Part shown: positions 2,988 through 35,308 of the stretch, in pieces | Numbering within the stretch: the first letter of the stretch is position 1 | Layout of the letters: each line of letters begins with the position of its first letter | Translations under genes and position numbers: made by a program | Notes under the pieces: model-generated | Databases searched by the model: none | What the model was told of the DNA's origin: nothing | What the model saw: the letters and a program-made list of their open reading frames with translations, nothing else | Assembly: GCA_023247915.1 (NCBI GenBank) | Contig: JAHFFN010000014.1 | Location: 1 to 35,811, forward strand | Length of the DNA stretch: 35,811 nt | Origin: Candidatus Omnitrophota bacterium | Lineage (GTDB): Bacteria > Omnitrophota > Gorgyraeia > 2-02-FULL-51-18 | Direction of reading: 5' to 3'

Positions 2988-4714
2988 GAAATTTAAGCGA
3001 ACGCATCATTGAAATTTTAAAAGAAACCAAGCGCATCAGCGAAGCGGATATTCAAAAAGCGCTTTCGGAATACGCCAAGGACAATAGCGGTAAACTCAGG
3101 GATGTGTTGGTTCGGATGGGTTTGATCAGCGAAAAAGAACTCATGTCTCTTTTGAGCGTGGAGCTCAAGGTTCCCTTTTTAAATTTAACCAAATACAAAA
3201 TCAGCCCCGACATCGCCAAAGCGGTTCCCGAAAAAATGGCTCGCAAACATCAAATCGTTCCTATCTCAAGAATTGGCAACACACTGACGGTCGCCATGGC
3301 GGATCCGTTTAATGTGATCGCAATTGATGATATCGCTATTTTGACAAAGGCCAAGGTGGAGTGCGTGCTGTGCACTGAAAAAGATGTACAGGAGGCTTTG
3401 GATCGCGTGTACGTGACCGAAACAGAGAGCATCGAAACCATGGTCGGTGCGCTGGGAAATTCCACGGAAGATTTAGAGATGGTCAAAGATGAGGAGGACT
3501 CGGATGTCGCGACTGTCGGGAAACAGGATAGTGCCGGAGCCCCGGTTGTTAAAATCGTCGATCTTTTGCTTCGCGAGGCTTTGAAAAAAAGAGCCTCTGA
3601 TATTCATATCGAGCCTTTCGAAGACCGCGTGCGCGTGCGTTATCGTGTGGATGGCGCACTCCAAGAGGCGTTCACCATTCCTAAGAGCAATCAAAGCGCG
3701 GTGTTGACGCGTCTTAAAATTTTATCCCGCTTAGACATCACCGAAAGCCGCATCCCTCAGGACGGTCGCTTTAAAATCAAGTTGGATAATAAAGAAGTCG
3801 ATTTTCGCGTGTCGATTCTACCCGTGTATTTTGGCGGAAAAGTGGTCATGCGTCTTTTGGACAAAAGCGCGATTAGTTTTGGCTTGGATCACTTGGGATT
3901 TTTGCCGGAAACACTCAATGCTTTTAAAACCGCCGTTGCCAAACCATTCGGAATGATTCTTATTACCGGCCCTACCGGTAGCGGTAAATCGACCACGCTT
4001 TACTCTATTTTGAATCAGCTCAATACTCCGGAGCGAAACATCATCACCATTGAAGACCCGATTGAATACCAGGTGAAGGGAATCACACAGATTCACGCCA
4101 AGCCGGAAGTCGGGCTTGATTTCGCCAGCGGACTGCGCGCTATTTTGCGTCAAAGTCCGGATGTGGTGATGGTGGGTGAAATCCGTGACGGCGAAACAGC
4201 GGATATTGCGATCAAGGCTTCTCTGACGGGTCAGATTGTCTTAAGTACACTTCACACCAATGATGCGGCCGGTGCCATGACACGTCTGGCGGACATGCAT
4301 GTGGAGCCTTTTTTGATTGCTTCGAGCGTCGTGATGGTGGCGGCTCAACGCCTTTGCCGGAAAATCTGCGCCAATTGCAAAACGAAGGTCGAAATTCCCA
4401 AAGAAGTATTTGAGAAAGCCGGGATTCCTTTGGATAAAATCGTTCCCGATCCCAAAGACCGTAATTTCATTAAAGGGAAGGGTTGTGAAAAATGCAATCA
4501 AACCGGCTACAAAGGAAGAATGGCGGTTCTGGAGACGCTCACGGTGGATGACAATATTCGTGACATGGTGGTCAGCCGAGCCTCTTCTTTTGAAATCAAA
4601 AATTATGCCGTGAAAAATGGCATGACCACACTCCGTGACGACGCGGTCAAAAAATTTTGTGCGGGATTGACAACGCTGGATGAAGTGCTTCGTTTGACCA
4701 CGGAGGATGAATAA
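2984..4714 (+). CDS. pilB: PilB/GspE-family pilus assembly ATPase, copy 2
   Basis: A second complete assembly ATPase of 576 residues directly follows the first. An N-terminal MshEN-like region (about 1-150) precedes Walker A GPTGSGKSTT near residue 329, the Asp-box region ITIEDPIEYQ, Walker B SPDVVMVGEIRD, the His box STLHTNDAAGAMTRLADM and the zinc cysteines CANC and CEKC. It differs from copy 1 throughout, so the duplication is old and both copies look functional. Its stop overlaps the pilC start: ATAATG places ATG at 4714. Two PilB motors could serve different pseudopilins or form mixed motors. I cannot tell which copy drives the pilin at 6134. Confidence 0.94.
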   Translation: MRNLSERIIEILKETKRISEADIQKALSEYAKDNSGKLRDVLVRMGLISEKELMSLLSVELKVPFLNLTKYKISPDIAKAVPEKMARKHQIVPISRIGNTLTVAMADPFNVIAIDDIAILTKAKVECVLCTEKDVQEALDRVYVTETESIETMVGALGNSTEDLEMVKDEEDSDVATVGKQDSAGAPVVKIVDLLLREALKKRASDIHIEPFEDRVRVRYRVDGALQEAFTIPKSNQSAVLTRLKILSRLDITESRIPQDGRFKIKLDNKEVDFRVSILPVYFGGKVVMRLLDKSAISFGLDHLGFLPETLNAFKTAVAKPFGMILITGPTGSGKSTTLYSILNQLNTPERNIITIEDPIEYQVKGITQIHAKPEVGLDFASGLRAILRQSPDVVMVGEIRDGETADIAIKASLTGQIVLSTLHTNDAAGAMTRLADMHVEPFLIASSVVMVAAQRLCRKICANCKTKVEIPKEVFEKAGIPLDKIVPDPKDRNFIKGKGCEKCNQTGYKGRMAVLETLTVDDNIRDMVVSRASSFEIKNYAVKNGMTTLRDDAVKKFCAGLTTLDEVLRLTTEDE

Positions 4715-19333: not shown

Positions 19334-21256
19334 TTGTTTCAAACGATTGAATTCTATAATGGCAAGCAGGTGCAATTTGACCTGCTTGCCAAAAATCTTT
19401 TTGATTTCGGATATCATCGTCAAGACCGGGTGACTTCCAGCGGAGAGTTCTCTATCCGCGGGGGCACCCTCGATCTTTTTCCGGTTCATTTTTCTCTGCC
19501 GGTGCGTTTGGATTTAGCGGACGACACCATTGAAAGCATTCACACCTTTGATCCGGCGACCGGAAAACGCCTGGAACCGCATCGCATGGTTTTGGTGTTA
19601 CCGGCCAAGGAGTCATCCCGCTCCTGGCGTCCAGGTGGTCGACTCACCGGCCCCGCCCAATCTTTTTTATCCCAGTACGAATCTCCGATAGACCCGTTTG
19701 TCGATATTGAGCCGGGGGACTTGGTGGTGCACATTCTCCACGGCATCGCCCGTTATCGCGGGATGAAACCGCTCAAGAACAAACAAAACAAAGTCGAAGA
19801 TCACTTCGCGTTGGAATTTGCCGAAAAAAATATTCTCTATGTGCCGACGCGGGATTTGCATTTGATTCAGCGCTATGTGGCTTTTGGAAAAATGCATCCT
19901 GAGTTGTCGCGACTGGGTTCTAAAACCTGGGAAAAATTAAAAGAAAAAACCAAAAAAGGCGTTTTATCTTTTGCGAGTGAACTTTTGGAAATGCAGGCCA
20001 AGCGGCGGGCTTTGGTGGGATTTCAATTTCAAAAAGACGTGGAGTGGCAGGCGAAGCTTGAGGAAGAATTTCCTTACGAAGAAACAGAAGATCAGAAAAA
20101 AGCGATCCGCGCCGTGAAAGAAGATTTGGAATCCTCGATCCCGATGGATCGGCTCTTGTGCGGTGATGTGGGTTACGGTAAAACCGAGGTGGCGCTTCGC
20201 GCCGCGTTCAAAGTGGTGATGAATGCCAAGCAGGTGGCGATACTCGTGCCGACGACGCTTTTGGCGGAACAGCATTATGAAACGTTTAAAGACCGGATGC
20301 AGAGTTTTCCGGTGAATATTCAAATGCTTTCGCGTTTTCAAACCAAATCTGAGCAAAAAATTGCGGTCGAGTCCATCCGGGAAGGTTCTTGCGATATTGT
20401 GATTGGCACGCATCGCTTGCTTTCCAAGGATGTGACGTTTAAAGATCTGGGGCTGGTGGTCATCGATGAAGAGCAGCGTTTTGGAGTGCGGCATAAAGAA
20501 CATTTAAAAAAATTGAGACTCTTGGTGGATGTATTGACGCTCACCGCTACACCGATCCCACGCACGCTTTATCTGTCGCTGGTCGGCACGCGCGACATGT
20601 CGACAATCAATACGCCGCCCAAAAATCGCAAACCGGTGGAGACCGTTGTTGCCGAGTCGAGTGACAAAATCATTCGTGAAGCCATCCTAAAAGAGATGGA
20701 TCGGAAGGGTCAGACCTTTTTGATTCATAATCGTGTCAAAGGCATTGAGGCTTTTGCCAAAAAAGTGGCGATGCTGGTGCCGCAGGCACGCATTGCGGTG
20801 GGGCATGGGCAGATGGCCGCCAAGTCTTTAGAAAGTGTGATGAAAAAATTTATTCATGGGGAAGTGGATGTGTTAGTGTCGACGACGATTGTCGAGTCCG
20901 GGATCGACATTCCCAACGCCAATACCATTATTATTCACCGGGCGGATCTTTTTGGACTTTCGGAGCTTTATCAGCTTCGTGGGCGGGTGGGACGGTTTGA
21001 CCGTAACGCGCACGCCTATCTTTTGATTCCTAAGGGTGCGATTTTAACCGAAGAAACCAAGAAAAAACTGACGGCCATTGAGCGCTATACCTATCTGGGC
21101 TCTGGATTCAATATCGCGATGGAGGACTTGGAGATTCGGGGGGCGGGCAATATTTTGGGGACAGAACAGCATGGCTATATCTCACATATTGGATTTGACC
21201 TGTATTGCCGGATTTTGAGGGAGACGGTGGAACGGCTTCAATTGAAAGCCGGGTAA
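19334..21256 (+). CDS. mfd: Shortened transcription-repair coupling factor (Mfd)
   Basis: A 640-residue Mfd-like translocase; typical Mfd has about 1100-1150 residues. It begins in the last piece of the UvrB-like module (GYHRQDRVTSSGEFSIRGG), then has the CarD-like RNA-polymerase-interaction domain (EPGDLVVHILHGIARYRGM, about 125-200). The RecG-like motor carries GDVGYGKTEVA (about 277), VVIDEEQRFGV (about 376), TATPIPRTLYLSL and QLRGRVGR. The TRG segment EDLEIRGAGNILGTEQHG closes the motor. Most of the UvrB-like/UvrA-contact part (D1-D2) and the C-terminal D7 domain are missing. Stop codons bound the frame, so this is how the gene stands. It should still push stalled RNA polymerase; recruitment of UvrA is doubtful. 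Confidence 0.9.
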   Translation: MFQTIEFYNGKQVQFDLLAKNLFDFGYHRQDRVTSSGEFSIRGGTLDLFPVHFSLPVRLDLADDTIESIHTFDPATGKRLEPHRMVLVLPAKESSRSWRPGGRLTGPAQSFLSQYESPIDPFVDIEPGDLVVHILHGIARYRGMKPLKNKQNKVEDHFALEFAEKNILYVPTRDLHLIQRYVAFGKMHPELSRLGSKTWEKLKEKTKKGVLSFASELLEMQAKRRALVGFQFQKDVEWQAKLEEEFPYEETEDQKKAIRAVKEDLESSIPMDRLLCGDVGYGKTEVALRAAFKVVMNAKQVAILVPTTLLAEQHYETFKDRMQSFPVNIQMLSRFQTKSEQKIAVESIREGSCDIVIGTHRLLSKDVTFKDLGLVVIDEEQRFGVRHKEHLKKLRLLVDVLTLTATPIPRTLYLSLVGTRDMSTINTPPKNRKPVETVVAESSDKIIREAILKEMDRKGQTFLIHNRVKGIEAFAKKVAMLVPQARIAVGHGQMAAKSLESVMKKFIHGEVDVLVSTTIVESGIDIPNANTIIIHRADLFGLSELYQLRGRVGRFDRNAHAYLLIPKGAILTEETKKKLTAIERYTYLGSGFNIAMEDLEIRGAGNILGTEQHGYISHIGFDLYCRILRETVERLQLKAG

Positions 21257-21277: not shown

Positions 21278-22132
21278 ATGAAATTTTTTAAATACTTGCT
21301 AATATTAGGGTTGGTCGCGTTTTGCGTGGGCTGTCAAAAGAAGGATGGCAGTCTCGTCTTGGCTCGGTTTGACGGGGATACCATCACGGAAAACCAGCTG
21401 TTAAGGAAGCTCGCGACTCTGCCCCAGGACATTCGCTTGACCGCGCTTAAGCGCAAAAAAGAATTTCTGGAAGACATGGCTTCCGAGCATTTCCTCCTCA
21501 AAGAAGCCAAGCGCAAAGGCCTTGAAAAAGATCCTGATGTCGTCGCTTTGATCGACGCCGCTCGCCGCAAAATCATTGTCGCTAAGCTGATTGAGACGGA
21601 GATTGATAAGAAAATCACGCTGGAAGCGGATGCCGCCAGCAAATATTACGAGGCTCGCAAACAGGATTTTATGACACAGCCGGTGCTTCGCGCTTCCCAT
21701 ATTTTGGTGAAAACCGAGGAGGAGGCCACCCAGATTAAAAACCAGCTCAATCAGGGGGCTGATTTTGAGGAATTGGCGCGTGCCAAGTCCATGGACGCGA
21801 CCGCTCAGCGCGGAGGAGACCTGGGATTTTTTCAAAAAGGTCAATTTGTTCCCGAATTTGAAGACAAAGTGCTTCAGATGAAAAAAGGGGAGGTGAGCGA
21901 GCCGGTTAAGACACGCTTTGGCTATCACATCATCAAGCTTACGGATCAAATGCCGTCCTCGCTCAAAGAATTTAAGACTGTCAAACGCCTAATCGAAGAG
22001 CGTTTGGTCAGTGAAAAAAGAACCGAAGCGTTCAAAAAACTTGTAGAAAAATTAAGAGGATCCGAGAAAATCAATGTCGATGAAAAAGCGCTGGAAACAT
22101 TCACAAAGAAACTCGATGAAGCTAAAAAATAG
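21278..22132 (+). CDS. Parvulin-type peptidyl-prolyl isomerase lipoprotein (PrsA/SurA-like)
   Basis: A 284-residue exported foldase. A signal peptide ends in lipobox FCVGC (cysteine 19), so it should be lipid-anchored. Residues about 25-125 form a SurA/PrsA-type helical chaperone part (FDGDTITENQLLRKL). About 135-235 form a parvulin domain with RASHILVKTEEEA, GGDLGFFQKGQFVPEFEDKV and TRFGYHIIKLTD. It would help fold secreted or outer-membrane proteins. It sits directly before a second isomerase, whose start it overlaps by 17 bases. PpiD is excluded because there is no membrane helix other than the signal. Confidence 0.9.
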   Translation: MKFFKYLLILGLVAFCVGCQKKDGSLVLARFDGDTITENQLLRKLATLPQDIRLTALKRKKEFLEDMASEHFLLKEAKRKGLEKDPDVVALIDAARRKIIVAKLIETEIDKKITLEADAASKYYEARKQDFMTQPVLRASHILVKTEEEATQIKNQLNQGADFEELARAKSMDATAQRGGDLGFFQKGQFVPEFEDKVLQMKKGEVSEPVKTRFGYHIIKLTDQMPSSLKEFKTVKRLIEERLVSEKRTEAFKKLVEKLRGSEKINVDEKALETFTKKLDEAKK

Positions 22133-23081
22133 TATTTATTTTGTTTTATCCCTGGCTTTGTTTTTGACGTTTGGCCATCTCATGCCCGCCTATTCAGCGG
22201 ATGTGGTGGAGCGGATTTTAGCGGTGGTCAATGATGAGATTATCACGGATCAAGATCTCCAAGTCGTGATGGCTCCGGTGATTTCTCAGTATAAAACCAT
22301 TTATACCGGACAAGAATTGGAAGATAAGACTAAAAAGGCGCGTGAAGATTTTCTGAATAAGCTTATCGAAGAAAAAATGATTTTGAGCGAAGCCAAGAAA
22401 AAACAAGTGATTGTCGCTGACTCCGAGGTCGATGAGATGCTGACGGATGTGCGTAATAAATTTCCGTCTCGTGAGATATTTCTTAAGGCCATCGAAGACC
22501 AGGGGCTTACCGAGAAAAAACTTTGGAATCGTTTCCACGACCAGCTCATGACGCAGAAGCTGGTGACCTATGAGGTAAAGTCCCGTATTTCCGCGTCGCC
22601 GGGCGAAGTCAGCGATTATTACAAAGCGCATCCGGAGGAATTTTCACAAGGCGACCGCGTTCATTTGAGACAGATTCTTGTGCGCGAAGGCGCTCGTTCG
22701 GCGGAAGAAGCTAAGACTTTCGCGGATTCGTTGATCGCTCAGATTGATCAAGGCAAATCTTTTGAGGAATTGGCCAAAACGTATTCCGAGGGCTCGGAGG
22801 CTAAAGAGGGCGGTGACATGGGTTGGGTGCAAAAGGGTCAGCTGATGGGCAACATCGACCAGAAGGTGTTTCTTTTGGAAGAGGGTCAACACACCGCGGC
22901 TATCAAAAGTTCTTTAGGGTATCATATTTTTCAAGTGGTCGAAAGACAGCGTTCTTCGCTAAAGCCTTTGGCGGAGGTTCGGAACTCCATCCAAGAGACT
23001 ATTTTCAAAGAAAAGCTCGGGGAACGTCTCGACGCCTGGATCAAGTCTCTCAAGAAGAATGCCTATATCTCAATCCGGTAA
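22116..23081 (+). CDS. surA: SurA-like periplasmic chaperone / peptidyl-prolyl isomerase
   Basis: The start is placed at ATG 22116, giving 321 residues, because a good signal peptide begins there (MKLKNSIYFVLSLALFL, cleaved after AYSA). An upstream ATG at 22074 would bury it. The SurA N-terminal domain follows (VERILAVVNDEIITDQDLQV), then one parvulin domain (VHLRQILVREGARS, GGDMGWVQKGQLMGNIDQKV, SSLGYHIFQVVE) and a C-terminal helix. E. coli SurA has two parvulin domains; this has one. The order surA-pdxA-rsmA matches E. coli, supporting the name. It overlaps pdxA by 23 bases. Confidence 0.9.
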   Translation: MKLKNSIYFVLSLALFLTFGHLMPAYSADVVERILAVVNDEIITDQDLQVVMAPVISQYKTIYTGQELEDKTKKAREDFLNKLIEEKMILSEAKKKQVIVADSEVDEMLTDVRNKFPSREIFLKAIEDQGLTEKKLWNRFHDQLMTQKLVTYEVKSRISASPGEVSDYYKAHPEEFSQGDRVHLRQILVREGARSAEEAKTFADSLIAQIDQGKSFEELAKTYSEGSEAKEGGDMGWVQKGQLMGNIDQKVFLLEEGQHTAAIKSSLGYHIFQVVERQRSSLKPLAEVRNSIQETIFKEKLGERLDAWIKSLKKNAYISIR

Positions 23082-25144: not shown

Positions 25145-26833
25145 ATGAAGCAAACCAAGAGAATTCAGAAGAAAATAAGCGCGTTCATTTTGGCGCTAGC
25201 TTTCTTTTGTCAAGATTTGGCTTGGGCGGCGCCGTTTGACGGGGCGGCTCTTCAGCCAATGACTCCTATTCAGAGCCTTCTTCAAAACCCCACACTTTTT
25301 GAGGCGCCACTCCAGTTTGCTTCGCTTCGTGAAATCCACCAAGGTTCCGGAAATGTGTTTATCATTCACATCCAAGATGCTCACTCCAATCTTTCAGGCC
25401 AGCAAAATCTCGCGGGAGCGCTGGATGAGATCATGACGAAGTATCCGGTATCCCTGATTCTTTCCGAAGGGGGTGCGGGAGATTGTTCGTTGGATAAATT
25501 TCGCAAAGCGGCGCCGAAAGCGCGCGTTCAATTGGTCGCGAAAAGCTTTTTGATGAGCGGGGAGATTCAAGGCGAAGAATATTTGAATCTCATTTCGGAT
25601 CATCCGATGAAAATCATGGGTCTTGAGGACATGAATCTTTACCGCCAGAGTTTGGAGAGTTATTCCCGTTTGGCTGGAAAGAGGGAAGAGATTTTGGAAT
25701 ATCTCAAAGTCATGCACCGCTCGCTTGAAAAATTAAAAAACAAACATTATCCGACCGAGCTTTTGGAGTATGAAAAAAATAATCAGGCTAATTTTGAAAA
25801 TCAATTCAAAGGGCTTTTAAAGCTGATCGGTGGCGGGCATGATGATTTGTTGGCCAGCTATCCCAATCTTCTGAAGCTTAAAACTCTTTTAGAAAAAGAA
25901 AAAACACTCGATTTTGACGCGGCCAATCTGGAACAGGCCGCGCTGGTCGAGAAAATCGCCGGTCAAATCAGCGAGGAAGAGTTTAAAAAATATTTCAGTA
26001 AAGCCGCTCCGGCTTTTGGAGTGTCGGCAAGCCCGTCCTTCACGGGACAATTTGCCTACTTTCAAAAAACTTTAAATATTGCCAAGCAGAAAAATATTTC
26101 TCTGGATGACTATAGTCACTGGGCAGAATATGGCGACTATCTCAAGGAATTTTCGGGGATTGACCTAGAGTCCGTGCTAGACGAGCTTGTGCGTGCGGAA
26201 GACAAGGTTTATCAGGTGGTGTTGACCGAGAGCGACGCTCAGCTCATTCGTTCCATCGACCGCTATTTGGGTCTCTTGGACAAAGCCTATCGTATCCAAA
26301 TGACGACCAAAGACTTTAATCTCTGGATCGCCAACGAACCCGATTTTTCAACGGCTTCGTATCAAGCTTTTTTGAATCGCAAGCTCGCTGAAGCAGGTTA
26401 TTACGAAGATCTCGTACCTTACCAGCCAATCTTGGAAGAAGGCAAAAACGCGCTGATCCAATTTTACGACTCCGTCGCCAATCGCGATCTGGCTTTTATT
26501 AAAAATACGGAAACATCGCTCGATCAACAAAAAATCGCCGTCCTCATCACCGGCGGTTATCATACCGATCACCTCACACAACTTTTCAAGGAGAAAGGTT
26601 ATTCCTACGCCGTCCTGACCCCAACCGTCACCGCCGAAACCAATCAGAAAAAATATGAAAAACTTCTTCTCGAGCCCCTCCAAGAAAAAAAGAAAAGTTT
26701 CGAATCGACGGACGGACAAATTCACTCCGATAAATCCCTAGGCTCACTCGGAAAAGATTTTGCCGTGAAGCCCTCCACGACGAATGTTCGTATGCAATTA
26801 CTTGGAATGAGACCGGATGCCATGAAAGAATTT
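25145..26833 (+). other. N-terminal domain of the giant protein (possible TIKI/TraB/ChaN-like fold)
   Basis: Residues 1-563. After the signal peptide, VFIIHIQDAHSN and SLILSEGG near the front and ITGGYHTDHLTQLFKEKGYS near the back recall the way TIKI/TraB/ChaN-type proteins place His/Glu motifs at both ends of a helical fold. This is a weak, memory-based resemblance. The region looks like the genome average in base composition, unlike the AT-richer middle modules. Confidence 0.35.
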
Positions 26834-29800
26834 GGCGCTAGACTTGGGGTATCGATTCCAGTGCCCACTACAGAGCACGACGGACTTCTTCGCGGCGCAG
26901 AAAGTGTAATACAGGGCGCACGGCTGGCAATCATTCGTCGGGAGAATATTTTAAAGATTGAGAAGGGTTCCGACGATCTCAAAAAAGGCCAACTCCAAAA
27001 GCTTTTGTCGGCGGCGGGTCTTTATTGGTATGCAGATACACGCGTTCCTAATGTCGAAATTAGTGGTGGTTTCAAGAAAAATGCATTTGCTTTACTGAAT
27101 ACGCGCGGTAACAGACATCTACTAAGTACTGATTTTTTAAGGTATAGAGAAATCGTTAATGGTACGGAGTCGCTTTACGGTTACGATCTATTTTTAACCA
27201 GCAATCTAGTGGATCGGCAGTATCTAATTCAATTTATCAATCAGTCTTTCGCAGGCCATCCGGACGCGAGTGAATCTATTGCGAAGTATGTCACGATTGT
27301 AAATGAGATTGCGCCAGAGCCGTCCATTGCTCCGCGGGCAGTACCAGCGTCTGTGGATTTGAAATTCGAAAGGGATAAGCTGAGAGCGCTTCAGATTCGT
27401 GATCAGATCGTGGACTCAGTAATAGGAAACATGTCTTACCAGCTGATCAGTGCTAACAATCCCGTGCTAATTTATAATGCAGATCCTTCAAAACGGCCAA
27501 CGACACGAAATAGTCCTATCGCGGAGCTTGACGGTAAAACAGACGTACAAGCGTCGATTAATACGGGTTTCTATCAATTGAAAAACGGCGAATTGTTTAA
27601 AAAGCCCTCAAAAGACGGCAATTTTGATGCTGTCTTGACGCGTCTTCCAAAAGATCAATTGCATGAGTCTGCTGGACTGCTTTTGGTCGAGCTTCACAAT
27701 GAATCAGACCCGGAAAATTATACGACCATTCCTTTATATATTGCTAAAGCGCTTTTTGAAAAAGGGCTGGTCTATCTCGATCCGCTTTCCAACCAACTGT
27801 ATACAGGAGCCGGCAGTTCTATCGACACGAATTACAGGATGGTAGCCATCAGCATGCCTGTAGCCACAACGCGGGATCTTCATGACGCCTTGATGAATGC
27901 TGGCGCACGGCTATCCTCTCCAGCTTCACCAGCATTAAGATTGACAGATTTGCCCGAAGGGCGTTGGTGGAAAGTGATTACCGCGAGAGACGATGGATTT
28001 GGCAGAATTTATACAGAGAAACTGGTGAATGATCCGAATCTGGATCGAGGCGCGGAAGTTAACGAGGGCGGAGATTCATCAAACATTGGTTTATTGGCCA
28101 AATATTTACCAAAGTTTGCAGAGGATCTTGGAGTGAGCTCTCTGGAATTAGAAGGGAGCATAGAATACCCCGATAAGGTAGCTCTTAACGCCAGAATTCT
28201 ACGCCTCAATCAAATCAAGCCCGCCGTGTTTGTCACATTTTGGGATAACGAGGCGGGAGAGTTTTCTGTAGAGGATTATTTGGAACATTGGAGACGTAAA
28301 GAAGCGGTGTATACAAGAACCGGGCCTTATCATTTTCATGATGTGAATGTGCATCTGGTTGATTTTCTTTTAATGCCGCAGGAGCTTGTCGAGACTTCTT
28401 CGCGCTTAGCGGAGTTTTTGTATCGATTAAGTAAGGATAATGAACTTAGTTCAAATCCAATCGTAAAAAAAGAAATCGAAATTCAAATGGTTAATTTTGT
28501 GCGGGACTTAGACGCTTTAACAGCTGGATCTTTTAAGGATCTCGTTCTTCAGTCTGATTCAGCGATGGGATCCCAAATCCCTACTTATTACAGCGCGCTC
28601 TCTGCGAATAGTATGAAGGTTTCAGATTACGCTAGAAGGATTATTTCGTATATTGAAAAAAAGCAAATTGAGGGGGGCGGTGCTGGTAGAGCTAGTAGTT
28701 ATTTGCTGCAGGCAGCGCAGTTGGCTCAAATAAGAAGGATGGGCGGCATCGGCGCTTCCCCTACCGCTTCCAGCAAGAAATGGCAGGATAAAATAAGAAA
28801 GATTGCTTCAGAGGTGGGGGATGCATCTGTAGCGATTAATAACCTCAGCGACTTATACAAAGAAAGGGTTGCCGCTCTAATGGGCGCGCGGATGGCCAGC
28901 GCTGGTAAGTCTGGCGGCAGCTATCTCGAAGAAGAGATCGTGAAGCTACCCTATAGCCGAGATGATGTTTTTAATAAACGTTTGCAGAGCCGCTGGGTCG
29001 AGCTAAAAAAGGCAAGGCTAGAAGAATTTCAAAATTATTCGAATTCGATCGCAGGCGAACTGGATGCTGAGTTTGCGGGCGAGACGTTTGGGGCTCATTC
29101 AAATTTTTCAAAAGATGATTATCCTAAAAGTTTTGAAACCGTTAAAAAGATTTGGAAAGCTTATCGTGGAAAGGGAAAGCTCACCCAAGCGGATTATGAA
29201 ATTTTACAGCAAGCAATGTTGTTGCTCGAAAAACACAGTCGTGCGGCTGGAAATTTGGCGGTAGAAGCGATAGGAGAGCTTCAGGCTCCGGGTATTGCCG
29301 CAGAATTTAAAACTACTGATAAAAAATTAAATGAGTTTTATGCGCAAAGAGGAATTAGAGGTCCAAGTGAGATCGCTTTATCTCTTGCTTCTATTGCTAA
29401 GAAAATCGACCAAGGCCAAGATGCGGCTGAAATTTGGCTTGAACTAAGTTCAATCAGTGGAGAATTAAAAAACACACATACTGCCATGATAGAAGAATAT
29501 GGCGAGCCTAGCGAACCTTGGCACGATTCCATTCACGATGCGTCTTTAGCTTTGCGCAGCGCTACCCAGATTATTTTAAGGCAAGCAGGAAACGACGTTG
29601 ACACGATCTGCCAAAAAAATGGAGCTCAAAATTTATCCTTGGAAGAAATTCAATTTTTAGCGGAGTCCGCTTTGAGCCTGAACCGTATTTCTAAGCGTGG
29701 TCAAGTCCTTTCAGAATTAGGCTTCGATTCTTCCAGACTTATCGTTAAAGGGGATGGACGTTATTATTATTTTTATCTTGGGGAAGACCGACGGGGAGGG

Positions 29801-32800
29801 ATAGGTGAGGGGCGCTTGGCGGTTGCTCAATATCAAGATGCAGAATTTACTCGTCCGATGGGGCAAATAAAAGTTTTTGAGGAACCTCCATACGATCTTA
29901 CAAAACGCCTGCAGGATATGTATTTAGGAGATCTTGCGGGAGGAGTATTTTTGCCCACTCCCCAGATGCCCGCAGAGTCATCGACTGAATTTACGAGAAG
30001 TCTCGAAGACCAGTTGGATGAATTAAGCGGTCTTTTAACAAAAGACGAGATAGGAGAACTTCACTGGCGACTAGATAATTTAATAGCCTTGGGGCCTAGC
30101 ACGCGATCGATTATTTCCACTTTCAATACGTTCCATAAAAATCCAAAAGAACCGATTCGAGAGAAAGTGACTCCGAATTCATTGCATTTATTCTTTGAAA
30201 GCTCAGATTCTTTAGGGCTGTGGCAAAGCCAGGCAGATATTTCTCATAATTTGGCAGAGATGGTGAACATTATTTGGTTTGGAAAAGATGGGTTGCTCCG
30301 AAATCAAAGGGATAGATCCGTGATCATTGAAAATCTTCTTGGAGTGAGTCAATCCACTAACTTTGGAGCTGGCGCGCGGCTCAGCGCGACCCAGGCGAAG
30401 CTTCCTTTTACAGGACAAACATTGACCAGAGAGCAATTCGAAAAGATGAGTATTTTGGCCGGTCTCTTGGTGGATGCTTATACGGAGTCGGGCAATAATC
30501 GGTTTATCAGAGGCATGTCAGAACTAGAGGGTCTGGAAGAACAAAATACAAAACAAGGAATATTCGAAGAAGCTCTTAAAGAGATCGACGACCCAGCCAT
30601 TTTAATATTTTTGCGGGCACAATATTCAGCAGATAAAACTTTCTTGCCTCAGGTGGCAGCGATTAGCCGAAGGCTACTTGCTCTTCCAATGACAGCGACG
30701 TCCAAAGAACTATCAGCGGTGATAGCTCGGGGCGCGCGGCTGTCGGGTGCTTTATCTATTGAACCTTCCGACGAGCGAGAAGGGTATTTAATGCGGCTTT
30801 TTAACTGCATCTCCCGTCCCGCGTATATAAAAATAGCGACACCTTTGGCGGTTATTTCAATAGCTCTTGTCGTTTATTTTAACGGTCGAATTTTGAATAC
30901 TGACGAAAGTCTGGATAAAAAGGCAGTGGTTATTAGCAAGGTTTCTGGAATTTGGAGCGGGAGTCCGGAATTTGGTGGGGAGATGCGCGACCATTGGTAT
31001 GGAAAAAATTTATCATGGTTTAGTGACCACAAGAGACCTGTCGTTTATAGCGCCGCTCCAACGGCTCCGGCTACTACTCCAGTAAAATCACTTAGGTTTA
31101 CCAATGCCAGAGACAGTGAGACAGGTTTATTAAAAACAGCCCAAGAAATCTCATTAACGCCAAAAAGTCGCCCGTCGGATGTTTTGGCGTATCTCCAGGT
31201 AGCCCGAAGAGCCGCCGGGTTGCGATCAGACGACAAGCTGGTAGGGTTGATTCAGCGGCTGATGGATGATATCCGAGCTAATCGATTGAAGCCGGGCGAT
31301 ATCGATAAAAGGTTTAAAGAGATATTTTTAACGGTAGATGCCAGCGCGAAAGAAATTTTAAGACGCGGTGGAGCGGAGAGCCTTGTTTCAGAATTTCACA
31401 GAGCATTTTTTCTTAGAAGGCTTTTCCTTTTGGTTGCCTTTTTTTCAGGGGGATTCGCTTTTCTTACAGCCACTTTTCTCGGGTTTAAAGAGCAATCTGA
31501 AATAAATGTTCGTAATTTTTTTCTCAGTATTGTACAAAGTGCTAATGAAAAAAAATCAGCGATCAAAGATGCGCTACTCGGTATTCAGGGAGTTGATGAG
31601 GATCTCGTAGATAAATTAATGGGTCTTAAAGCACTCGACAAAATGAATAATCTGGAGCTTGGCTTAATACTCAAACAAGTGTCCAGTGTAGAATTTCAAA
31701 ATCGACCCCCCGGTGAAGTAAATGATCAGATAAGGCAGATTATTGAGCGGTTATCCGGCGCGCGGTTGGCAGGTCAGTCGGAATCAGTCGTTACAGAGCC
31801 CGATGATCACGTAGCTGTTTCTTTGCCGGACAATGTCAAAAAGGTTAATTTGTCGGGCTATCCGATTACTTTGACATTCGACGGACAAAAAATAACAGCC
31901 TCATATCTTAATTTCGACAGAAATAAAGAACCGACTAAGGTGGAGAAATTGATGGCTGATGGCGACGTTTTTCGTATTGGCCGCAGTGCCAATGGCAATG
32001 ATGTTGTGTTGACGGGAGATGCAGCGATTTCAAGCCAGCACCTTAAAATCGTACAAAAAGCTGGCGAATGGTACGGTGTCGACAATTCCACCAACGGAAC
32101 CACATTTGATGGCACAACCTATTACGGCCAAGAATTTTTAATTTATAAACCAGCTGGCGCGCGGCTGTCTCAGGTTACCGCCAAAGTCGTGGAACAGCAG
32201 GAGGTGTTGAGGAAAAAGAAAAAGTTGCCCACAAGAATAGAACTTACTGTCCCCGGGAGCCGCCAAAAAGTCATCATTCAGTTTGCAAGCTCAATACAGA
32301 CTCAATCAACGGCTATCCGCATGCAATTCAAAGTGTGGCAAGAGCCCAGTTTAGATCCGCAAAAAAAGCATTCCCTGGTCATTATTCTTAGTGATTCCTC
32401 TGGTGAAGTTAAGGGGATGCTCGCGAATTTTAAAGAATTTGAAGAATTGGGAGCGATTAATCATTGGCTCGCTTCATTGGCAGGGAAGAAGTGGAATAAA
32501 GAAGATCTCGAAAAAAGTGTGCCATTGGCGGACACAAATTTATTGGATGCTCAGGAAACAATCCATGCAAAAAATTTGGCGAGGCAGATCGCCGGAAAAG
32601 CAAGAGTTCAGCTGGATAAAATTAATCAAGCGCTTGAAGTTTTGAAATCGGTCAGCGAGAAAGAAGGGTTAACTGAGAACCAGCGCAAAGCCATTTCACA
32701 GATTCAAACGGCCGCTGAAGTCATTTCAAACTCGATTGTCAGTGAAAAAGCTAAAAACAGAGGTGAGCAAATTTTAGTGGATACTCTATTTTCTCGGTCA

Positions 32801-35308
32801 GGCCATGAGAAAACACCGCAGGATTTGCCTGAATTTGATTTAAAAAATAAGGCAGTGGCGGTAATGCAGAATGCCCATTCTTTTTCGGCAAATATAACCG
32901 GGTTTTCCAAAAGATTGGAATTTACAAAAGCTCGTGTGCCGGAAATGGAGAGAATCATTTCCGTTTTAGAAAACTATGTAGCCTCCGAAGATTTGAAAAC
33001 TCCTCTAATTTCAGAGATGGATCCTACGATGAAAAAGATCGACATCATTGATTTGAATTTGTATGCCGGCGCGCGGCTGGCGACGACTCCCAAGGATTTT
33101 AATTTGGTGGAATTCAATCAAGCCACGCTGAGTTTGTCTCAAGCGCTAACTTATCCCGGCTGGGTGGAGCTTGCATCGGAAATTAATCAATTAAAGGCAG
33201 GTTCCGTAGAAGGAACTAATGCAAAAATTTTGGGAGATCTTAAAAGCTACGCAGAATTTGTTTTAAGACAAGTCCAGGCTTTTGAAACAACCAATCAGCC
33301 AAATCGTGATTTACTCAAGAGAACCGTGAGTGAAGGCGGGAACGCGGCGGAATACGATTTGATGAATTCCTCAAGAATTATTATTGGTTTTATTAACAGA
33401 TCGAATAGGGATGGGGCACTAAAAATTGCCGATGTAGAAAGAATAAAAATTAATTACCAGAGAATTGCGAGCACCATCCAATTATTGCAAGCGTTTCCAA
33501 ACCAAACCGGCCAGGTTCAATTTCTGGAAGGGCTGGGGAGGCCGTATGTTAATTTAAGAGAAAGAGAGTCTGTGCCGGCCGCTGAAGAAACGAGGGTGGA
33601 GAAGGGGGGAATGATGGGGGCGCGGTTAGCGAAACGGCGCCAACAGGAAGAGATACTTTTCCGAAAAGAAATTGACCGGATGGGGCGGCAGGTGCGGGGA
33701 CAATTGCTGGCGGTAGACACTCTTTTAAAGAATCCTAAGCGAGATACTCCGGTCGTCGTAAAAAGAATGAAGGCGGCTCAAGAGTCTATCGGACGTTTTC
33801 AAGAAAGAATAAGTCAGATTCAAACCATGTCGGCTGCCCAAAGAGAAGAATTTAGTCAAGAACTAGACGCGCTTTCCAAAAATTTGAAGATGACGGATAA
33901 GAAGCTGGATCAATTAAAATCCGAACCAAGCACTGATGAGCTTGGCAAGCGAATCGTGGCTTTGTATCTTTGGCATAAACGGCTTTCGAAAAACCCTATT
34001 CTTGTTCGAGCCAATCTAGGTCGTTTTGGAACATTGATTGACCGGGCGAAGGCCAGAGAGATAGAAATTGCCGGCTTTGTAAAGGAACAGAAATTTACTG
34101 TCGATATTCTTCATCAGACAGAAAAATCCGAAAAAGAATTAAGAGAATTAATTCGGGAGATTCGCCGCCAAAATCAAATAGAGAAAAATTCCGCAGCCGA
34201 TACTTTTTCTAGAGCCGTTAAAAGCGGCACTTATTCTTTAAAGCCGGAAACAGCGGCATTTGCTAAAACATTTTTGACCAAAAAAGGCGTCGAGAATCTT
34301 GGGGAGTCCGAAAAAGTGCTGATCAAAAAATTGGCCGTGCTTGGAATGGCGCCCAAAAAAGACGGACAGCCCAGAGCCATTGAAATTCAGTCAGAGGGCA
34401 GTTCGCAGATGACATTGATTCATATCCAACCGGTGAAGGGTGGAGTGAATGTTGAATTTTCCACGAACGAAGAGGTGGTGGCTGTTTATTCTCTGACCAA
34501 AGAAGAGGTTCAAGACTTTAGAGATGAGTCGGCTTTGAGACCGGGTGCGCTTTATGTTGATCTTAATCGTGCGCAAAAAGAGTTGGAGACTGGGATTGAT
34601 CAAAGAGGCGCCAACAGCTTGGAAGTTTTATCCACCATCCATGAAAGAGATCGTCTCAATCGTTTTGCGATGATAAAGGTGCCGCTGAGTTTTGGCGAGG
34701 AAGAGAAAGTGGTGGTAGGTTATTTGCCCGAGTCTTCTTATACTGCGGAGATTGCTGAGCAATTGTCCGGTGAATTTAATTCTCAAATCAAGCCGATACT
34801 CCAGCTTTATCCTGAGCGGGTGCGCGTGGCGCCTGTTGAAAATGGCAAGCTGACTATGCCGGCAGGATTTGAAAAGGCAAAAGTTATTTTGGTGGGAGCG
34901 CTCAATGAGAAAAATATCGCTTATGCGCAGTCGATTGGCGCGGGACTTGTGCCTCAAGATGCTTCCGCGCCGTCACCTAATAAAATCCCTGTGATGGCTT
35001 ATCAGGCAATATTAATTTTAGCGATTGGAACCGCTCTTCTAAAAACTAGCGCGGACGGCAGAGTCAACAGTGCCTCTGAACTGGAACGACTGGCACAGCT
35101 CCATTCTCAGTTAGTGGATGCTGCTTATCGCGGGGAAGTGTCGGATGTTGCCAAACGCCTCGAAAACTTTAACGCCATGCGAGCTCCGCAGCTTTCCACG
35201 CTTGAAATTCTCAAAAAACTCGTGATTCATCCGGTCGCTCGCCTCAGCTTCGACGACATTCTCCGTGTGATTGCCGCCCGCCTGACCGCCGTCGGAGCCG
35301 CCGCTTAA
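25145..35308 (+). CDS. Giant exported modular protein (3387 residues) with ten GAR(L/M) boxes and an FHA domain
   Basis: One uninterrupted frame with a good ribosome site (GAGGGG) and a signal peptide (basic start, ISAFILALAFF core, cleavage after AWA near residue 28). Residues about 30-560 form one domain with IQDAH (76-80) and GGYHTDH (470-476). Ten G-(A)-R-(L/M) boxes at residues 564, 591, 920, 1247, 1743, 1863, 2205, 2338, 2642 and 2825 split the rest into modules of 27 to 563 residues. Hydrophobic helices lie near 1897-1912, 2093-2113 and 3281-3300, an FHA domain near 2255-2335, and a coiled-coil stretch at about 2830-3060. The end carries degenerate VARLS (3364) and AARLT. Most modules are unknown to me. 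Giant proteins are reported in Omnitrophota; function is unknown, and a polyprotein or surface fibre is inference. Confidence 0.9.
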   Translation: MKQTKRIQKKISAFILALAFFCQDLAWAAPFDGAALQPMTPIQSLLQNPTLFEAPLQFASLREIHQGSGNVFIIHIQDAHSNLSGQQNLAGALDEIMTKYPVSLILSEGGAGDCSLDKFRKAAPKARVQLVAKSFLMSGEIQGEEYLNLISDHPMKIMGLEDMNLYRQSLESYSRLAGKREEILEYLKVMHRSLEKLKNKHYPTELLEYEKNNQANFENQFKGLLKLIGGGHDDLLASYPNLLKLKTLLEKEKTLDFDAANLEQAALVEKIAGQISEEEFKKYFSKAAPAFGVSASPSFTGQFAYFQKTLNIAKQKNISLDDYSHWAEYGDYLKEFSGIDLESVLDELVRAEDKVYQVVLTESDAQLIRSIDRYLGLLDKAYRIQMTTKDFNLWIANEPDFSTASYQAFLNRKLAEAGYYEDLVPYQPILEEGKNALIQFYDSVANRDLAFIKNTETSLDQQKIAVLITGGYHTDHLTQLFKEKGYSYAVLTPTVTAETNQKKYEKLLLEPLQEKKKSFESTDGQIHSDKSLGSLGKDFAVKPSTTNVRMQLLGMRPDAMKEFGARLGVSIPVPTTEHDGLLRGAESVIQGARLAIIRRENILKIEKGSDDLKKGQLQKLLSAAGLYWYADTRVPNVEISGGFKKNAFALLNTRGNRHLLSTDFLRYREIVNGTESLYGYDLFLTSNLVDRQYLIQFINQSFAGHPDASESIAKYVTIVNEIAPEPSIAPRAVPASVDLKFERDKLRALQIRDQIVDSVIGNMSYQLISANNPVLIYNADPSKRPTTRNSPIAELDGKTDVQASINTGFYQLKNGELFKKPSKDGNFDAVLTRLPKDQLHESAGLLLVELHNESDPENYTTIPLYIAKALFEKGLVYLDPLSNQLYTGAGSSIDTNYRMVAISMPVATTRDLHDALMNAGARLSSPASPALRLTDLPEGRWWKVITARDDGFGRIYTEKLVNDPNLDRGAEVNEGGDSSNIGLLAKYLPKFAEDLGVSSLELEGSIEYPDKVALNARILRLNQIKPAVFVTFWDNEAGEFSVEDYLEHWRRKEAVYTRTGPYHFHDVNVHLVDFLLMPQELVETSSRLAEFLYRLSKDNELSSNPIVKKEIEIQMVNFVRDLDALTAGSFKDLVLQSDSAMGSQIPTYYSALSANSMKVSDYARRIISYIEKKQIEGGGAGRASSYLLQAAQLAQIRRMGGIGASPTASSKKWQDKIRKIASEVGDASVAINNLSDLYKERVAALMGARMASAGKSGGSYLEEEIVKLPYSRDDVFNKRLQSRWVELKKARLEEFQNYSNSIAGELDAEFAGETFGAHSNFSKDDYPKSFETVKKIWKAYRGKGKLTQADYEILQQAMLLLEKHSRAAGNLAVEAIGELQAPGIAAEFKTTDKKLNEFYAQRGIRGPSEIALSLASIAKKIDQGQDAAEIWLELSSISGELKNTHTAMIEEYGEPSEPWHDSIHDASLALRSATQIILRQAGNDVDTICQKNGAQNLSLEEIQFLAESALSLNRISKRGQVLSELGFDSSRLIVKGDGRYYYFYLGEDRRGGIGEGRLAVAQYQDAEFTRPMGQIKVFEEPPYDLTKRLQDMYLGDLAGGVFLPTPQMPAESSTEFTRSLEDQLDELSGLLTKDEIGELHWRLDNLIALGPSTRSIISTFNTFHKNPKEPIREKVTPNSLHLFFESSDSLGLWQSQADISHNLAEMVNIIWFGKDGLLRNQRDRSVIIENLLGVSQSTNFGAGARLSATQAKLPFTGQTLTREQFEKMSILAGLLVDAYTESGNNRFIRGMSELEGLEEQNTKQGIFEEALKEIDDPAILIFLRAQYSADKTFLPQVAAISRRLLALPMTATSKELSAVIARGARLSGALSIEPSDEREGYLMRLFNCISRPAYIKIATPLAVISIALVVYFNGRILNTDESLDKKAVVISKVSGIWSGSPEFGGEMRDHWYGKNLSWFSDHKRPVVYSAAPTAPATTPVKSLRFTNARDSETGLLKTAQEISLTPKSRPSDVLAYLQVARRAAGLRSDDKLVGLIQRLMDDIRANRLKPGDIDKRFKEIFLTVDASAKEILRRGGAESLVSEFHRAFFLRRLFLLVAFFSGGFAFLTATFLGFKEQSEINVRNFFLSIVQSANEKKSAIKDALLGIQGVDEDLVDKLMGLKALDKMNNLELGLILKQVSSVEFQNRPPGEVNDQIRQIIERLSGARLAGQSESVVTEPDDHVAVSLPDNVKKVNLSGYPITLTFDGQKITASYLNFDRNKEPTKVEKLMADGDVFRIGRSANGNDVVLTGDAAISSQHLKIVQKAGEWYGVDNSTNGTTFDGTTYYGQEFLIYKPAGARLSQVTAKVVEQQEVLRKKKKLPTRIELTVPGSRQKVIIQFASSIQTQSTAIRMQFKVWQEPSLDPQKKHSLVIILSDSSGEVKGMLANFKEFEELGAINHWLASLAGKKWNKEDLEKSVPLADTNLLDAQETIHAKNLARQIAGKARVQLDKINQALEVLKSVSEKEGLTENQRKAISQIQTAAEVISNSIVSEKAKNRGEQILVDTLFSRSGHEKTPQDLPEFDLKNKAVAVMQNAHSFSANITGFSKRLEFTKARVPEMERIISVLENYVASEDLKTPLISEMDPTMKKIDIIDLNLYAGARLATTPKDFNLVEFNQATLSLSQALTYPGWVELASEINQLKAGSVEGTNAKILGDLKSYAEFVLRQVQAFETTNQPNRDLLKRTVSEGGNAAEYDLMNSSRIIIGFINRSNRDGALKIADVERIKINYQRIASTIQLLQAFPNQTGQVQFLEGLGRPYVNLRERESVPAAEETRVEKGGMMGARLAKRRQQEEILFRKEIDRMGRQVRGQLLAVDTLLKNPKRDTPVVVKRMKAAQESIGRFQERISQIQTMSAAQREEFSQELDALSKNLKMTDKKLDQLKSEPSTDELGKRIVALYLWHKRLSKNPILVRANLGRFGTLIDRAKAREIEIAGFVKEQKFTVDILHQTEKSEKELRELIREIRRQNQIEKNSAADTFSRAVKSGTYSLKPETAAFAKTFLTKKGVENLGESEKVLIKKLAVLGMAPKKDGQPRAIEIQSEGSSQMTLIHIQPVKGGVNVEFSTNEEVVAVYSLTKEEVQDFRDESALRPGALYVDLNRAQKELETGIDQRGANSLEVLSTIHERDRLNRFAMIKVPLSFGEEEKVVVGYLPESSYTAEIAEQLSGEFNSQIKPILQLYPERVRVAPVENGKLTMPAGFEKAKVILVGALNEKNIAYAQSIGAGLVPQDASAPSPNKIPVMAYQAILILAIGTALLKTSADGRVNSASELERLAQLHSQLVDAAYRGEVSDVAKRLENFNAMRAPQLSTLEILKKLVIHPVARLSFDDILRVIAARLTAVGAAA
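26834..33628 (+). repeat. Dispersed GAR(L/M) boxes, ten in-frame copies
   Basis: Boxes begin at 26834, 26915, 27902, 28883, 30371, 30731, 31757, 32156, 33068 and 33617. The protein consensus is G-A-R-(L/M)-(S/A/G). The DNA core GGCGCGCGGCT is exact at 30371, 30731, 32156 and 33068, with one or two changes at most other sites. The Arg codon is CGG in nine of ten. Confidence 0.9.
31907..32149 (+). other. FHA domain inside the giant protein
   Basis: Residues about 2255-2335 contain FRIGRS (GRS at 2279-2281), SSQH (His 2299) and NSTNGT (NGT 2317-2319). These are the three hallmarks of the phosphothreonine-binding FHA fold, correctly spaced. The domain fills the end of the module between the boxes at 2205 and 2338. 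Confidence 0.88.

Follow-up and report, generated by a model that had tools for sequence, protein, structure and literature searches.

A recurrent five-residue box marks the joints between shuffled modules in giant, predicted exported proteins of Omnitrophota

How is a giant protein of Omnitrophota put together, and what purpose might its recurring short motif serve? To our knowledge, Omnitrophota are a little-known phylum of tiny bacteria without isolates. Giant open reading frames (ORFs) from these bacteria and from related uncultured lineages are known and unexplained. The DNA analysed here, called the window, is a stretch of 35,811 nucleotides from contig JAHFFN010000014.1 of a Candidatus Omnitrophota bacterium (assembly GCA_023247915.1; home genome, G000). 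A single ORF of 3387 codons (10.2 kb; the window giant, C8) occupies 25145..35308 of the forward strand, on which all features of the giant given below are located. Its N-terminus, MKQTKRIQKK-ISAFILALAFFCQDLAWA-A, is an evident signal peptide on inspection (residues 1-28, 25145..25228, predicted end A-W-A|A), judged by eye and by hydrophobic stretches with -A.A ends in paralogues. The frame contains ten GAR tripeptides, all of which precede L or M and then A (5), S (4) or G (1). Composition predicts 0.14 copies of GAR[LM], and 2000 shuffles yielded at most two. An initial annotation had suggested the boxes to be cleavage sites of a polyprotein or linkers between modules. The ORF scan and inspection agreed with the frame and signal peptide that it described, and its ten positions, fifth residues and spacings (27, 329, 327, 496, 120, 342, 133, 304, 183 and 563 residues) were all correct.

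In what follows the box is defined as [G/A]-A-R-[L/M]-[A/S/T/G]. The N-terminal 510 to 540 residues of the window giant also open seven further giants of the home genome (3117 to 7023 aa, with contig ends truncating some) and were found in 40 of 59 genomes searched. Twelve chains, comprising all eight giants of the home genome, three of G010 and one of G002, carried 173 copies of the box. In 143,846 aa of giants, with N-terminal modules and box-free genomes excluded, GARL occurred 272 times compared to 8.1 expected, an excess of about 30-fold. AARL is a second form with 55 copies versus 2.7 expected in the home-genome giants. In contrast, non-giant ORFs of the same contigs had 3 boxes with 3.2 expected, i.e. 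no excess. A DNA-pattern scan of the whole genome located box clusters only on giant-bearing contigs and on a few fragments later recognised as giants. The box is strong in G000, G001, G002, G004, G005, G009, G010 and the order's second family, where it often reads GARM, and weak or absent in G008, G011 and G012. Giants of distant families of the class had no box excess despite the same N-terminal module, and word enrichment detected no clear similar joint boxes in box-free lineages. This confirmed the box as a real and strong feature which is general beyond the window. Relatives of the window giant reach 12,701 aa, and one frame 16,849 aa. G010:C1 (1588422-1589162) holds a frame of the latter length with a subtilisin (S8) domain, and in the home genome an open frame of G000:C53 (1-30000) extends from the contig start over at least 10,000 codons. 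A repeated ASLGMTSG-type sequence at the frame start of L063 (G001:C59) is probably a translated DNA repeat.

If the boxes separate modules, they should avoid the interior of domains. Sixteen Pfam domains (1912 aa) contained none, compared to 5.0 expected (circular shifts, P = 0.0018), and 19 internal segments shared among giants contained 3 versus 15.3 expected, a count as low being reached in 0 of 5000 shifts. Both results confirm that the boxes mark joints between unrelated modules, as the initial annotation had stated. Its proposed check, whether modules change order from genome to genome while their joints retain the box, gave a positive result through shared modules framed by boxes: C11:4745-4970 with G10b:2174-2408, L068:2710-2950 with G2:6160-6385, and C8 with both G2 and C63. 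For example, the limits of a Rossmann-like module are AAARLAA and TGARLAD in G000:C11 and, between other neighbours, SGARLAA and SGARLAD in a G010 giant. In the window giant, boxes 8 (GARLS, residue 2338, 32156..32170) and 9 (GARLA, 2642, 33068..33082) enclose two modules. The first has a counterpart in G002 that is flanked by ARLA boxes and is box-initial as well. The second, a helical module, is shared with G000:C63, also between boxes, and the box closing it there is AARLA. The junction of the two modules in the window giant reads SVPLA (2458-2462, 32516..32530) and is probably a decayed box, because it aligns with an intact AARLA in G002. A search with the internal modules of the window giant across the order gave matches in G000 and G002 only; thus most of its modules are unique.

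Variation of GARLA at single positions showed how narrowly the box is defined. Position 1 was G (195) or A (60), position 2 was A with three T and three S, position 3 was essentially R with zero K, and position 4 was L (195) or M (23). GARL (n = 272) was followed by A (195), S (47), T (18), G (9), V (2) or C (1). In the flanks S/A was favored before the box and D/E after it, and P was enriched about two-fold at -4 to -2. A plain spacer would not need such a profile, and we conclude that the box is very likely recognised by a protein. A cut directly behind L/M would call for a small residue in the next position, as is seen here. The conserved L/M followed by A/S/T/G would fit a cut behind Leu/Met no less well than one behind Arg.

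The modules that the boxes separate include many enzymes. Pfam modules of the home-genome giants include HTH, PAS, LRR, HEAT, beta-propeller, PGM/PMM, methyltransferase and acyl-carrier domains; glycosyltransferase domains also occur in giants. Box intervals of a 10,129-aa giant of G010 hold a methyltransferase (6016/6320), CheR (6320/6615), HD-GYP (6615/6844) and a kinase (8186/8469). By inspection HDIGK, HHE and GRGYP of the HD-GYP module and HRDLKP and DFG of the kinase are intact, as is LGLDS of the acyl-carrier module of C63. Cysteine makes up 0.11-0.13% of giants versus 0.90% of neighbouring proteins, a seven- to eight-fold depletion. Signal peptide and cysteine depletion together suggest that the giants are exported. 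Many of the modules need ATP, S-adenosylmethionine, nucleotide sugars, cyclic di-GMP (c-di-GMP) or phosphopantetheine, and for this reason they probably act on targets within another cell, host or prey. Omnitrophota have been proposed in the literature to be host-dependent predators or parasites.

The module that opens the giants (residues 29-510, 25229..26674) is common to giants across Omnitrophota. Loci kept from genome contigs in GTDB were almost all from Omnitrophota/Omnitrophica, with one from Ca. Theseobacter. Its structural model had a mean predicted local distance difference test (pLDDT) score of 86.5 (34 relatives). Invariant are D78-x-H80, E108, G159-x-E161, F440-Y441, R447 and G470-G471-x-H473. 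D and H of the putative catalytic D78-A-H80 (25376..25384) are kept in 32/32 relatives covering the site, E108 (25466..25468) and the basic R447 (26483..26485) in 34/34, and the second histidine, H473 in G-G-Y-H (26561..26563), in 33/33. In the superfamily of TIKI, erythromycin esterase (Ere) and ChaN proteins, which spans esterases, haem-binding proteins and site-specific endopeptidases, His-Glu pairs such as H85/E113 of Bcr135 and H3902/E3930 of VvRRSP are accompanied by a conserved Arg and a second His, and in TIKI proteases a basic residue close to the active site is reported to be conserved (PMC6254334). The N-terminal module has the same 28-residue spacing (H80/E108), a conserved Arg (R447) and a second His (H473). 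A TIKI fold has a central parallel beta-sheet with helices; the predicted fold of the module is alpha+beta with TIKI members among the structural matches, and Foldseek returned 3b55 (Bcr135), EreC, ChaN and HopBA1, none of them significant (E at least 0.09). On the other hand, D-x-H takes the place of E-x-H (2His/2Glu in VvRRSP), there is a large all-helical insertion, and no Pfam or PDB sequence match is significant. Pfam ChaN matched 3 of 34 members (best E 0.02), searches of Pfam and NCBIfam with the N-terminal module and the C-terminal region gave nothing significant, and PDB sequence searches with the profiles of both yielded chance-level matches only. Because Asp replaces the first Glu we describe the module as TIKI-like and a putative hydrolase and do not file it as a member of the superfamily. 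In L002 and L060 a non-conserved loop of the module contains in-frame stretches of the VIASEAKQS...IASSPSAPRND type that look like translated palindromic repeats.

Which protease might act on the box? The suggestion of an Arg-specific or subtilisin-like enzyme in the initial annotation was not supported. C11 (clostripain) was absent from 57 genomes and C14 (caspase-like) from 16 genomes of the home order. S1 (trypsin-type) was present in 31 of 57 genomes and absent from nearly all of the box-bearing order, a fragment in G009 excepted; S8 and S41 were patchy. The S1 enzymes, including DegP/HtrA types, are missing from nearly all of G000-G014 and common elsewhere in the class. What stands of that protease-site or linker proposal is the position at joints, the retention of the box through shuffling and its narrow profile. 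The N-terminal module is the only hydrolase-like module that always accompanies the box, which makes it a candidate for a protease cutting the boxes in cis. It is a candidate only, as it is present in box-free chains and by itself in a separate protein too.

Taken together, we favor with moderate confidence a reading of the giants as exported, multi-module polyproteins, probably of effectors, whose box joints are recognised and most likely cut. A chain consists of a signal peptide, the TIKI/Ere-like N-terminal module, a varying series of independently folded modules and a conserved C-terminal module, and would be exported. The box would then be bound and most likely cut by a dedicated protease, either directly behind L/M, before the small residue, or behind R, and the released modules would act inside another cell, host or prey. 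The sequences show the box, its place at joints, the shuffling of modules, the two arms, the restriction to a lineage, the scarcity of cysteine and, in several modules of relatives, intact motifs; cleavage, delivery and the N-terminal module as a protease in cis are what we infer. Several points weigh against this account. Structural similarity of the N-terminal module to TIKI proteins is weak (best E 0.09), and Asp (Asp78, 32/32) stands where the TIKI/Ere superfamily has Glu as the first acidic residue, albeit a conservative change. The module is not specific to the box, since box-free giants have it too and it forms a protein of about 500 aa by itself. None of the protease families searched (C11, C14, S1, S8 and S41, with C25 outside the search) tracks the box. 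The window giant itself has few recognisable modules. The box DNA has a favored word beyond codon usage, and shared DNA ancestry contributes. Finally, a model of window residues 2190-2660 across three boxes was poor (pLDDT 49.9); the boxes lie in or at the edges of stretches below 50, values of 50-82 are attained in the two shared modules that they enclose, and at this confidence the model neither supports nor refutes a flexible-linker position. Of 373 inter-box segments 330 are without a predicted membrane helix, and topology parity is hence a weak test.

The alternative that survives best is a docking motif or fixed linker, bound by a chaperone, the secretion machinery, a surface scaffold or a partner and left uncut, in giants that remain intact as surface fibres or coats. 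It accounts for the placing of the boxes at joints and for their narrow specificity; the enrichment of proline in front of the box would fit a linker, no searched protease follows the box, and in published proposals the giants of Omnitrophota remain intact and serve as coats, adhesins or surface weapons. However, a plain linker would not hold an invariant Arg or L/M followed by A/S/T/G, and the many cytosol-type enzyme modules would be odd in a fibre or adhesin. We regard this alternative as a serious one, if clearly short of probable.

The reading as a cut and delivered polyprotein can be extended to a new class of self-processing bacterial polyproteins. A genome would encode about ten of them, and every chain would bring tens of active enzymes (kinases, methyltransferases, c-di-GMP hydrolases, glycosyltransferases and carrier proteins) into another cell, its own N-terminal module would cut GAR(L/M)|(A/S/T), and genomes would freely exchange cargo at the boxes. 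So complete a scheme is tentative and rather doubtful. The giants would be a functional parallel to the MARTX toxins, which carry several effectors and process themselves, not homologues. Like these they are very large, apparently exported chains with conserved arms, variable effector-like modules, repeated sites of a small-Leu-small type between modules and a candidate protease in the same chain. The MARTX processing protease needs Leu at P1, prefers small residues on both sides and acts in unstructured segments between effectors (PMC2900308). Unlike MARTX, the eight home-genome giants have neither a cysteine protease domain (CPD) nor another protease domain among their Pfam matches, nor do the Pfam matches of the giants scanned include any MARTX-type domain or the MARTX N- and C-terminal repeats, their arms being non-repetitive modules. 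They differ further by an invariant 5-residue box, dozens of sites, lengths up to >12,000 aa, a putative protease of another fold and a presumably microbial target.

The giant ORFs of Omnitrophota described by Seymour et al. 2023 (PMC10066038) come from the same phylum and are likewise very long, exported-looking, poorly conserved frames with few annotated domains. That description covers ORFs of >20 kb and discusses a role as coats, adhesins or weapons. The window frame is with 10.2 kb below that limit, and homologous frames such as that of 12,701 aa exceed it. A joint box, shared arms, shuffling or processing were not found in the accessible parts of that account. The joint box supplies a grammar for these proteins: it splits giants into testable units, reveals the shuffling of cargo and points to a recognition event. 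If the modules are indeed cut and delivered, the giants would constitute large effector arsenals of a design not found described in the literature searched, and the box would become a tool with which to dissect predation or parasitism in Omnitrophota.

Boxes that mark module borders might also be mainly a DNA joining scar, where modules are exchanged through recombination in the short DNA that encodes the box, with its residues as a by-product. Box codons do deviate from genome usage (Arg CGG 45% vs 14% in G000), third-position GC is raised over the box codons only (G000), and the 12-base word GGCGCGCGGCTG is strongly over-represented with 9 copies versus 0.13 expected in G000, 4 versus 0.03 in G002 and 6 versus 1.5 in G010. 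Yet the 82 boxes of G000 are spelled by 57 different DNA words with all six Leu codons, while the amino acids are fixed, which indicates selection on the protein sequence; a recombination word alone would let the amino acids drift too. We therefore consider a mere scar improbable. The boxes share recent DNA ancestry, as is expected if modules arrive with their joint, and this is compatible with selection at the protein level. An origin of L/M from the start codons of fused genes was rejected, since all six Leu codons are in use.

Kinase, HD-GYP, CheR, acyl-carrier, methyltransferase and HTH modules are cytosolic types, so that the giants could be multi-enzyme proteins of the bacterium's own cytosol with the N-terminal hydrophobic stretch as an anchor. 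That is very improbable given a standard signal peptide with an A-x-A end and the depletion of cysteine in the giants. Chance or a compositional artefact, for which the commonness of Ala, Leu and Arg might speak, is refuted by the roughly 30-fold excess in giants, its absence from neighbouring ORFs and the conservation of boxes at homologous joints.

Along the window giant, box 1 (GARLG, residue 564, 26834..26848) and box 2 (GARLA, 591, 26915..26929) form a double box of the kind that trails the N-terminal module in several relatives. In several genomes the module is followed by two boxes 27-70 residues apart (residues ~550-690; window 26834-26929) with a short, partly similar spacer. The module (938-1094) after box 3 (GARLS, 920, 27902..27916) recurs in G002:C76. 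Then follow box 4 (GARMA, 1247, 28883..28897), box 5 (GARLS, 1743, 30371..30385), box 6 (GARLS, 1863, 30731..30745) with two predicted membrane helices in the module downstream, and box 7 (GARLA, 2205, 31757..31771). Between boxes 7 and 8 lies an FHA domain (2273-2326, 31961..32122), the sole Pfam trace in the window giant; the match is weak, below the curated cut-off, and in keeping with the earlier statement that FHA alone is recognisable. Box 10 (GARLA, 2825, 33617..33631) is the last before the conserved C-terminal module (region 3128-3387, 34526..35305), which is common to giants (21 aligned). All giants thus have two shared arms, N- and C-terminal, and neither is a known Pfam family. The tail of the window giant is FDDILRVIAARLTAVGAAA (35249..35305); most complete chains of the family end in -AA or similar. 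AR(L/M) often stands about ten residues before the end of giants, and the window giant has AARL at residue 3377. The hydrophobic -AA ends resemble tags for tail-specific proteases, a resemblance only.

Shortly upstream of the giant two PpiC/SurA-type peptidyl-prolyl isomerases are encoded (21278-23081) among housekeeping genes for RNase E/G, Obg, ArgS, PdxA and KsgA. A Mfd-like helicase frame of 640 aa (19334-21256) has UvrB-interaction, RID and helicase domains and may be shortened.
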